Origin: Cyanosarcina radialis HA8281-LM2
GTDB taxonomy: Bacteria; Cyanobacteriota; Cyanobacteriia; Cyanobacteriales; CCAP-1448
DNA: 64,000 nt
Direction: 5' to 3'
Assembly (NCBI GenBank): GCA_019359615.1
Contig: JAHHHA010000010.1
Span: 62,001 to 126,000, forward strand
The position numbers were made by a program, and so were the translations under genes. The notes beneath the pieces were generated by a model. It was not told the origin of the DNA. It saw only the letters and a program-made list of their open reading frames with translations, and did not search any database. Positions 60,607 through 62,546 of the stretch are shown piece by piece (within the stretch, counting starts at the first letter, position 1; each line of letters opens with the position of its first letter).

Positions 60607-61250
60607 TTAATTAAGTTTTTGATGTATATTAATATCTCCCACATCTACAGTATTTGAAAGTGACAAAATCCATTCTATTGCAGAAATTAGATCCGCAAGT
60701 GGAATTGGAACTTGTTGGGAAAATCGCCCCTCTTCAATATCTGTTAATACTTCTTCTGTCGCCACGTTACCAGGATTAATCACCGTGACCCCAATCCTGC
60801 GATCTCGTAAGGCCAACTTTAATGCTTGTGCCGCACCTCTTAACCCAAACTTTGATGCCGTGTTAGCCACTTCAACAGATGCAGAGTTATCTAGCCCAGA
60901 TAGCGCACCAATAAATATCGCTCTTGGGTTGTCCGATTTGGCAAGATTTTTAGCGAGTTGTTTAGTTAATTCTATAGGGGCAATAGTATTCACTGCGATG
61001 ACATAGCGAGTTTCTCGATCGGAGCTTTTCATAAAGTCGTATTGCTCTGTAAATGCTCCATCTTCCCAAACTCCCCCCATGAATAAAAGGGCATCTAAGA
61101 CAGATTCACCAATGGCCTCGGCAACTGATTCGATCCCTTCAGAAGTAGAAATATCTGCTTGAATCCACTCTCCTGCAACTGCTTGACTTCTGGAGACAGA
61201 GATCGCGCGATCGCCTTTCTGGGCAAAATGTCGAGCGACAATCGAAGAAA
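60607..61250 (-). pseudogene. N-terminally truncated short-chain dehydrogenase
   Basis: From the stop at 60607 upstream to about 61250, one frame reads SDR sequence. It starts with SSIVARHFAQKGDRAISVSRS, continues through DALLFMGGVWEDGAF and NTIAPIELTKQLAKNLAK, and ends at VEVANTASKFGLRGAAQALKLA. The first strand and the GxxxGxG cofactor loop are missing. Its 5' end runs into the 3' end of the LysR gene, and no in-frame start exists before the ATG at 61080. It is a deleted gene fused to foreign sequence. Confidence 0.6.
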
Positions 61251-61279
61251 GATAATTTACTCTGGCTCGATCGAATATT

Positions 61280-62215
61280 CTAGCTAACTGGAACCGCAGG
61301 AGTATCGACTTTTAATTCTGTCATTTGTTTGCCTTCTTCTTGCAGATAATTAACGAAGGTTTGGGCGATGATAGACATCTGTTTTCCGGCTGGATAGATG
61401 GCATACCAATGGCGATCGATCGGAAAGCCACTGACATCTAAAACTGCTAAAGGACCGTGGGTTCCCTCCAATGCTAAGGTGTGAATCGACAGGACTGATA
61501 TTCCCAATCCACCGACGATCGCCTGCTTGATTGCTTCATTACTGCTCAACTCTAGCCTGACTTTGAGTGGCAGATCGTGTTGCTCGAATAGCTGCTGCAC
61601 TACCTTGCGAGTACCAGAACCGGATTCTCGCATGATAAAAGGTTCCTGGGCGATCCGCTCTAGGGTGATATTCTGCTCTTGAGTCAGAGGATGGTTTTGC
61701 GGGGCTAACACCACTAGGGGATTTTCCAATACCGGATAAGAGACAACATCGGTAGTTTCTGGAAGTTGGCTGACGATATAAAGATCGTAAGCGTTATCGT
61801 TCAACGACTGCAAAACGCGTTCGTGGTTTGAGAAGTTCAACGATACGTCTACGCCAGGATATCTTTCGCAAAACGGGCCCAAGAGACGAGGCAAAAAATA
61901 CTTAGTTGTAGTGATCGCCGCTAAACGCAACTGCCCTTGCTTCATGCCTTTGAGATCGGCAATTGCCATTTCAAATTGGGCCATTTGCTCGAAAATGTCT
62001 TTGCAGGTGACGTAGAGTTTTTGTCCCGCATCGGTGAGATAGAGACGCTTGCCGATTTGCTCGAATAAAGGCAAGCCGACAGCTTGGTTAAGCTGCTTGA
62101 TTTGCATCGATACAGTAGGCTGAGTCAAGAAGAGTTCTTCAGCCGCGCGGGTAAAACTACAGTGCCGCGCTACTACTTCAAAGACCCGAAGCTGGTGCAA
62201 GGTGGCGTTCTTCAT
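61280..62215 (-). CDS. ccmR: LysR-family regulator, CcmR/NdhR-like
   Basis: 311 residues. The N-terminal winged helix is LHQLRVFEVVARHCSFTRAAEELFLTQPTVSMQIKQLNQAVG. The effector domain (residues 90-300) follows the RbcR/CmpR/NdhR pattern (LRLAAITTTKYFLPRLLGPFCERYPGVDVSLNF, ESGSGTRKVVQQLFEQHDLPL). In cyanobacteria CcmR (NdhR) represses the inducible CO2/bicarbonate-uptake genes, among them ndhF3-ndhD3-cupA, in response to 2-oxoglutarate and NADP+. That operon begins on the opposite strand 331 bp away, supporting this name over RbcR. Operator-like palindromes lie between them. Confidence 0.88.
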   Translation of the reverse strand: MKNATLHQLRVFEVVARHCSFTRAAEELFLTQPTVSMQIKQLNQAVGLPLFEQIGKRLYLTDAGQKLYVTCKDIFEQMAQFEMAIADLKGMKQGQLRLAAITTTKYFLPRLLGPFCERYPGVDVSLNFSNHERVLQSLNDNAYDLYIVSQLPETTDVVSYPVLENPLVVLAPQNHPLTQEQNITLERIAQEPFIMRESGSGTRKVVQQLFEQHDLPLKVRLELSSNEAIKQAIVGGLGISVLSIHTLALEGTHGPLAVLDVSGFPIDRHWYAIYPAGKQMSIIAQTFVNYLQEEGKQMTELKVDTPAVPVS

Positions 62216-62240: not shown

Positions 62241-62256
62241 ATAGATTAAATTCTAT
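62241..62256. promoter_or_regulatory. Operator-like palindrome 1 between ccmR and ndhF3
   Basis: ATAGATTAAATTCTAT, 25 bp upstream of the ccmR start. It is one of three 16-bp ATAGAT-N4-xxCTAT sites spaced 71 bp apart; this one would allow autorepression. Confidence 0.5.
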
Positions 62257-62311
62257 CATTAGTTAATTAAGCTTTGAATTTAAGTTATATACTTTCTATT
62301 CGACCTCTATC

Positions 62312-62327
62312 ATAGATAAATAGCTAT
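62312..62327. promoter_or_regulatory. Operator-like palindrome 2 between ccmR and ndhF3
   Basis: ATAGATAAATAGCTAT, the middle and weakest of the three sites, exactly 71 bp from each neighbour. Confidence 0.45.
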
Positions 62328-62382
62328 AGATGTCTCTGTACTTGATGTCTGGAGATATTTGCGGATGTCACAGTTTTCTTGC

Positions 62383-62398
62383 ATAGATTTAAATCTAT
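62383..62398. promoter_or_regulatory. Operator-like palindrome 3 between ccmR and ndhF3
   Basis: ATAGATTTAAATCTAT, the core of a perfect 18-bp palindrome (62382-62399, CATAGATTT and its complement). This is the strongest site, 148 bp upstream of ndhF3. Confidence 0.6.
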
Positions 62399-62546
62399 GA
62401 TTTGAATTAGAAACTTTGGCTTTTCATTATATATTCTCTGCCCTATGATAACAGTAGAGAAATTCATGGGGTACAGATGCAGAACAAATGAGATTTCGCG
62501 TCTCTAGTTCTGAGTTCCCGAACGTAGTTTTTTAGGCTTCGATCGC

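Follow-up and report, generated by a model that had tools for sequence, protein, structure and literature searches.

It has been reported that the LysR-type regulator NdhR/CcmR recognizes the consensus ATAG-N8-CTAT, as given in the available text of a review from 2026 (PMC13249358), which cites Klahn et al. 2015, and the accessible parts of two sources name ccmR and ndhF3 among its targets (PMC13249358; PMC3401165). For LysR regulators in general, the part of PMC4730206 that was available describes a regulatory binding site/activation binding site (RBS/ABS) layout, in which one tetramer occupies a strong site near -65 and weaker sites nearer the promoter. Our study concerns a stretch of 64,000 nucleotides from Cyanosarcina radialis HA8281-LM2 (contig JAHHHA010000010.1; hereafter the window), in which three palindromes with this consensus lie between a LysR gene, labelled ccmR, and the divergent gene ndhF3. 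Judged from the DNA sequence, this is most likely a CcmR regulatory region of the known kind, more richly equipped than those of the relatives examined, and we consider it probable that it contains one extra palindrome and two CcmR operators, each in two parts and both with the same polarity.

Three exact palindromes between ccmR and ndhF3

The genes and putative operator elements are given below in window coordinates; scores such as 5/8 count matches to the eight fixed bases of the motif.

61280 to 62215, minus strand: ccmR/ndhR, open reading frame (ORF) of a LysR-type regulator of 311 amino acids, divergent from ndhF3; best PDB match 5y2v
62241 to 62256, no strand: site 1, ATAG-N8-CTAT, putative ccmR-proximal primary operator; exact motif, placed as the site of locus L043, the nearest comparison
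62273 to 62288, plus strand: candidate partner of site 1 at +32, TTTG-N8-TTAT, 5/8; offset test in relatives and match to the two-part pattern
62312 to 62327, no strand: site 2, ATAG-N8-CTAT, extra middle site; exact motif, flanks unlike those of units 1 and 3
62383 to 62398, no strand: site 3, ATAG-N8-CTAT within an 18-bp palindrome, putative RBS-like primary operator of ndhF3 at about -65; in register with L043
62415 to 62430, plus strand: candidate ABS-like partner of site 3 at +32, TTTG-N8-TTAT, 5/8, at about -33, overlapping the predicted -35 box; TTTGACTTTTCATTAT at the same offset in L043
62547 to 63998, plus strand: 5' part of ndhF3, which runs past the window end (621 amino acids in L244, the locus with the gene's continuation); TIGR01960

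The sequence ATAGATNNNNNNCTAT (ATAGAT-N6-CTAT) was found at 62241-62256, 62312-62327 and 62383-62398, with no further copy within the window; its count is four matches, since site 3 scores on both strands, and 100 dinucleotide shuffles of the window gave a mean of 0.09 and a maximum of 1. The intervals from site 1 to site 2 and from site 2 to site 3 are 71 bp each. Site 3 is contained in a perfect 18-bp palindrome (62382-62399), and site 1 begins 26 bp upstream of the A of the LysR ATG (62215). A sequence-only reading of this DNA had described three palindromes in 71-bp steps, the last of them perfect over 18 bp and the first adjoining the ccmR start, and these positions and the shuffle expectation bear that description out. 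When the intergenic region itself (331 bp, 33% GC) was shuffled 20,000 times, the exact ATAG-N8-CTAT appeared once in 402 shuffles, twice in 3 and three times in none.

Conservation and spacer specificity of the motif

The three exact cores match the published NdhR/CcmR consensus and are placed upstream of ndhF3 and ccmR, which are known NdhR targets, in a genome that encodes an NdhR-type LysR (61% to 5y2v, and on the NdhR side of a split with support 99 in a quick tree). For the comparison of ndhF3 loci, 386 genomes were searched, of which 160 matched, and 40 relatives were searched, all of which matched; 131 loci, including the window's own, were kept down to approximately E 1e-82, and the comparison left out genomes with a weaker best match, family f26 with its small genomes among them, and any second match of the ndhF4-like kind. 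A scan of titled genome contigs gave 12 loci, none cyanobacterial by title, and the comparison was made on other genomes. The LysR set consists of the 300 bp upstream of LysR genes from the group of the window regulator, taken as matches with at least 45% identity and at least 150 bp of upstream sequence.

Among the LysR upstream regions, ATAG-Nk-CTAT with k = 8 is present in 34 of 69 (window included, not dereplicated by relatedness, and with one G398 gene present twice), and any other k from 3 to 13 is present in 0 to 3. In the 450 bp upstream of ndhF3 the corresponding figures are 31 of 130 regions for k = 8, a count that leaves the window out and is not corrected for relatedness, and 0 to 7 for the other spacers. 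Many of the LysR genes are not beside ndhF3, and the motif is present before such genes too; therefore, the motif tracks the regulator gene itself, as autoregulation predicts. The commonest position on the LysR side is -36 to -51 (13 of the 34 regions with a site), which is where site 1 falls. The palindromes thus look like CcmR binding sites, and the earlier assignment of a CcmR/NdhR regulator to them is supported by the published consensus, by the group to which the LysR belongs and by the motif upstream of many of the related LysR genes and of roughly a quarter of the ndhF3 genes examined.

A second half of the operator at 32 bp

When the relatives were aligned on the exact site, a weaker copy, often ATTG-N8-xTAT, was found exactly 32 bp off. 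Upstream of ndhF3, 30 exact sites outside the window had sufficient flank, and dereplication reduced them to 23, of which 10 score at least 5/8 at 32 bp. For the remaining offsets between 16 and 63 the mean is 1.2, and none of 2000 shuffles reaches the observed mean at 32 bp. Some loci whose best site is 7/8 (n = 52) also carry it: 12 of 49 score at least 6/8 at +32. On the LysR side, where the partners lie away from the LysR gene, 18 of 24 sites reach 5/8 at 32 bp (z 5.2 relative to other offsets, with no shuffle control); the two partner sets overlap in some loci. Offsets of -14 and +14 scored as high as +32 in a first test and, because they overlap the palindrome itself, only offsets of at least 16 were used in later ones.

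In the window, sites 1 and 3 have TTTG-N8-TTAT partners starting at 62273 and 62415, both toward ndhF3 and both scoring 5/8; the partner of site 2 scores 2/8 toward ndhF3 and 5/8 toward ccmR. The pattern palindrome-16-NTTG-N8-NTAT occurs at three places in the 6.5-Mb genome, two of which are sites 1 and 3, and its reversed control occurs at none. The third place (contig C9:72881-72928, minus strand, L145) has an OrfB/IS605-type transposase gene nearby, on its other side. A weaker second site at a fixed 32-bp offset is the two-part arrangement of LysR operators, and it is present at sites 1 and 3 and not at site 2. The available portions of the literature on NdhR operators, which do not extend to the primary papers, describe no 32-bp partner or three-site array, and we do not claim that the partner is unpublished. 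The palindrome followed by 16 bp and the weak partner makes a sharper search pattern than the published palindrome alone.

A consensus scan of the intergenic region gave four promoter-like matches, compared with 1.3 expected by shuffles:

62421 to 62449, plus strand: predicted ndhF3 promoter, TTTTCA-17-TATGAT; same boxes and spacing in L043
62250 to 62278, minus strand: predicted ccmR promoter, TTCAAA-17-TAGAAT, with its -10 box inside site 1
62336 to 62309, minus strand: second promoter-like match on the ccmR strand, across site 2
62408 to 62435, plus strand: second promoter-like match on the ndhF3 strand

With the predicted ndhF3 start assumed at approximately 62456, the centre of site 3 is at about -65 and that of its partner at about -33.

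The nearest comparison available is one genome of the same family (G386, locus L043), where the LysR gene is also divergent from ndhF3 and a single exact site lies between them. After both the L043 site and site 3 of the window there are 21 bp and then CTTTTCATTAT, and TTTTCA-17-TATGAT is present behind the operator in both; on the other side, 27 bp separate the L043 site from the LysR start, and 25 bp separate site 1 from it. The one operator of L043, standing in both positions, thus appears to correspond to two operators in the window. In 9 of the 131 loci, window included, the stretch read holds a LysR gene that diverges from ndhF3; seven of these nine have an exact site between the genes, and another divergent locus (L045) has an N7 form of the motif. 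Three exact sites are found only in the window among the loci examined.

The middle site and the 71-bp step

The sequence-only reading had gone further and proposed that the three sites lie on roughly the same helix face and could form a looping array that controls both genes. With 10.5 bp to the helical turn, one step of 71 bp corresponds to 6.76 turns and the 142 bp between the outer sites to 13.52, and the sites are out of phase across the range of 10.4 to 10.6; consequently, they do not share a helix face, and site 3 points almost the opposite way from site 1. The sites themselves recur in relatives on both the LysR and ndhF3 sides, as counted above, but the 71-bp spacing does not: the other regions with several strong sites (6 on the LysR side and 9 on the ndhF3 side, a strong site being exact or 7/8 with both inner bases) have spacings from 23 to 172 bp, none of them 71, and equal spacing as a conserved trait was rejected on this ground. 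Three equivalent operators with a 71-bp period, bridged into a loop by CcmR tetramers, would agree with the exactly equal spacing, with the 5/8 partner of site 2 that faces ccmR and with pairs of strong sites 65 to 74 bp apart elsewhere (66 bp in L212, 74 bp in L231 and 65 bp in L017, with 7/8 sites counted). The wrong phase, the absence of 71 bp from every other region examined, the single site of the same-family genome, and a site 2 that lacks the usual partner and has flanks unlike those of sites 1 and 3 make this loop very doubtful in our judgement. The even spacing is confined to this genome among those examined, which include no other of the same genus, and lends no support to looping of the DNA; on present evidence, neither the shared helix face nor the looping array can be upheld.

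It is important to consider whether the arrangement is the relic of a tandem duplication, in which a single ancestral operator was copied, by 142 bp or by 71 bp twice, to leave one copy per gene. When units 1 and 3 are compared over 71 bases, 42 are identical, and of the 55 bases that lie outside the palindrome, 28 are; none of 2000 shuffles attained this in-register identity. The L043 operator keeps the register of site 1 toward ccmR and that of site 3 toward ndhF3. The likeness of units 1 and 3 first seemed decisive, but it is matched or exceeded by the operators of other families: outside the palindrome, unit 1 shares 30 of 55 bases with L135, a locus of another family, and unit 3 shares 35 of 55 with L043. 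In addition, the two tails stand out less in a gapped local alignment, where 48 of 2000 shuffles do equally well, unit 2 resembles neither of the others, and identity at a shift of 71 or 142 outside the sites is at background (0.28). As the units are as like, or liker, to other operators than to each other, shared function explains the likeness and a recent tandem copy is not needed; we set duplication aside as unlikely.

Site 2 itself is probably a lineage-specific extra. In a post hoc test, sites 1 and 3 were held fixed and the middle was shuffled; another exact site appeared in 247 of 20,000 shuffles, in 12 of them within 2 bp of the midpoint and in none exactly there. The low frequency of an additional site makes pure chance an unlikely origin for site 2. 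That the site is a chance palindrome in AT-rich DNA without function agrees with its lack of the usual partner, its flanks unlike operators and its absence from L043; the shuffle frequency and the promoter-like match that it spans on the ccmR strand stand on the other side, and we rate this explanation as somewhat unlikely. A working third operator, whose tetramer could regulate ccmR on its own or join with the site on either side, was considered because the weak partner of site 2 points to ccmR, those of sites 1 and 3 point to ndhF3, and the site spans the ccmR-strand promoter-like match; this we hold to be decidedly unlikely. If it were true, the third operator would adjust the autorepression of ccmR relative to the repression of ndhF3 as 2-oxoglutarate (2-OG) and 2-phosphoglycolate (2-PG) levels vary over a range, where a single shared operator would instead lock the two responses together.

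The regulator and other carbon genes

The best PDB match of the window LysR is 5y2v, with 61% over 295 amino acids; we take this entry to be the structure of Synechocystis NdhR, although its PDB title says Rubisco operon regulator. In a quick tree of 34 rows, a split with support 99 separates the window LysR and 5y2v from five of the six LysRs adjacent to cmpA and from L201, a LysR beside ndhF3 in genome G387. Within the NdhR side, the window LysR groups with that of L043 and three or four others, not beside 5y2v, in both this tree and a larger one, also a quick tree. The 6.5-Mb genome yielded no further regulator of the NdhR/CmpR group; the next paralog there has 35%. The comparison of protein sequences thus places the window LysR in the NdhR/CmpR group. 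It being the only member of the group found in the genome, the label RbcR was also weighed. It was set aside because the 35% paralog fits RbcR better: its gene, on contig C21, adjoins an NnrU gene, in keeping with an rbcR-NnrU neighbourhood. Separately, in two members of the order (L187 in G401 and L188 in G005), a ccmR relative comes, by eye, just after carboxysome shell (CcmO-like) ORFs and not beside ndhF3.

The sequence-only reading had suggested that the motif be sought at other inorganic carbon genes such as sbtA, bicA and cmp; in the stretches read it is present at cmpA and, less exactly, at a bicA-like gene, and absent at sbtA and an ndhF4-like gene. Upstream of cmpA (558 bits to bicarbonate transporter CmpA structures, best PDB match 2i48, and 357 to NrtA) there is an exact ATAG-N8-CTAT at approximately 300 bp (L153:1501-1516, contig C24:56621-56636), with a 6/8 partner at 32 bp toward the gene. 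The bicA-like SulP gene has two 7/8 sites 47 bp apart, and sites of 7/8 or better are absent up to 700 bp from the sbtA start and from the stretch read at the ndhF4-like gene. An nrtA-like gene on contig C56 also has a 7/8 site upstream; therefore, 7/8 sites are weak evidence and not specific. In the cmpA regions of relatives (the best 30 loci from the 64 of 120 genomes that matched, the own genome left out of the count), the N7 spacing occurs in 4 of 29, as often as the exact site. The idea of one regulator governing ndhF3 and cmp through the same motif was not adopted, since just 4 of 29 relatives have the exact cmpA site, and is kept as a lead. In two genomes (loci L262 and L264) the same ATAG-N8-CTAT stands near -95 relative to cmpA, and its partner at +32 scores just 3/8. 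Of the 69 sites in the own genome, 28 (26 loci) were viewed in context, and none of the 10 neighbouring genes scanned with Pfam was clearly a carbon gene.

Several observations weigh against the reading as two CcmR operators and an extra site. No exact site lies within 450 bp of ndhF3 in 99 of the 131 loci, the genome as a whole has no excess of ATAG-N8-CTAT (69, and 96 for the reversed pattern), and sites before other carbon genes are few, that of cmpA not being general (4 of 29 relatives). Of the exact ndhF3-side sites, 13 of 23 have no 5/8 partner, and the two-part pattern was composed after the window partners, weak at 5/8, had been seen. The promoters are consensus guesses with other matches in the same stretch, each only a candidate, and TTCAAA-17-TAGAAT is not among the matches of the same scan in L043. 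As for the regulator, the sixth cmpA-adjacent LysR (L280) is placed on the NdhR side of the 34-row tree, the regulatory domain scores higher with CmpR 5z49 (268.9 bits) than with the NdhR domain entry 5y2w (245.1 bits), and the larger tree puts the CmpR domain row in the 5y2v group, apart from the window LysR. Because of this domain score and row placement, ccmR is kept as the best label for the window LysR, not as proven orthology.

The slightly higher score of the regulatory domain with CmpR, together with the position of the window LysR away from the NdhR anchor inside its group and reports, in the available text, that RbcR and PacR act on ndhF3 elsewhere, would also fit an RbcR or CmpR-type LysR as the main binder. 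The motifs of RbcR and CmpR differ from the palindromes, as far as the accessible part of PMC13249358 describes them, and ATTA(G/A)-N5-(C/T)TAAT was found in only 5 of 130 ndhF3 regions and in none of 69 LysR regions. With five of the six cmpA-adjacent LysRs in another group and a single NdhR/CmpR member found in the genome, another LysR as main binder seems highly improbable.

Proposed operation of the switch

For the two CcmR operators with an extra site, we infer binding, start sites and effector response as follows. In each operator, the strong ATAG-N8-CTAT palindrome would hold one dimer of a tetramer, and the weak partner 32 bp (three helical turns) nearer ndhF3 would hold the second dimer of the same tetramer. 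The site-3 operator would span approximately -73 to -26 of the predicted ndhF3 promoter, and a tetramer there, favoured by 2-OG as reported for NdhR, would cover the -35 box when carbon is plentiful. 2-PG would release it, as the accessible text of the 2026 review states for NdhR (PMC13249358); the available part of a 2015 review differs, stating that NdhR does not bind 2-PG (PMC4390856). The site-1 operator would cover the predicted ccmR -10 box and so produce autorepression. In the nearest relative one operator would serve in both positions; here the function would be split over two, 142 bp apart, with a single site between them.

For the switch that controls the inducible CO2-uptake complex, this gives a concrete operator map that can be tested. 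The single-operator relative and the split arrangement, taken together, could show how autoregulation and target repression separate in evolution.

Neighbouring genes

The plus-strand gene is ndhF3 by TIGR01960 (ndhF3_CO2), with 763.7 bits and a cut-off of 588.7. Downstream of it are a carbonic anhydrase gene, an ndhD3-like ORF (by eye) and a ChpXY/cupA gene. The carbonic anhydrase gene (Pfam Pro_CA, 135 bits; L244:6920-7645, contig C56), between ndhF3 and the ndhD3-like gene and just beyond the window, belongs to this CO2-uptake operon and has, by eye, a possible export signal. Another Pro_CA gene (L178:3164-3874) comes after sbtA and a small ORF. Directly downstream of ccmR, a short-chain dehydrogenase frame (60607-61299, minus strand) is open back into the ccmR end; its first listed start is the ATG at 61080, and its Pfam adh_short match begins at profile position 49, so that the N-terminal part seems to be missing.

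Comparison with known systems

The locus resembles the NdhR/CcmR operators of Synechocystis 6803 (ndhF3, ccmR, sbtA) in having ccmR and ndhF3 as putative targets, as far as the available texts describe them (PMC13249358; PMC3401165). Unlike in Synechocystis 6803, ccmR and ndhF3 are here adjacent and divergent with three sites between them, and there is no exact site before sbtA. The operators of CmpR and RbcR likewise serve LysR-type regulators of carbon genes, but their motifs, given in the accessible part of PMC13249358 as TTA-N7/8-TAA and ATTA(G/A)-N5-(C/T)TAAT, are unlike the window palindromes. With the RBS/ABS architecture, as the available part of PMC4730206 presents it, the region would share a site 3 near -65 and a weak partner nearer the promoter, counted from the predicted start; the fixed 32-bp offset, in contrast, comes from the present comparison. 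The region also resembles L043 and three loci of family f8 (L130, L135 and L141), which have divergent ccmR and ndhF3 genes and the same motif next to the LysR start, and in three of which (L043, L130 and L141) the partner at +32 scores 5/8. These loci have one shared operator, whereas the window appears to have two, together with an extra site.
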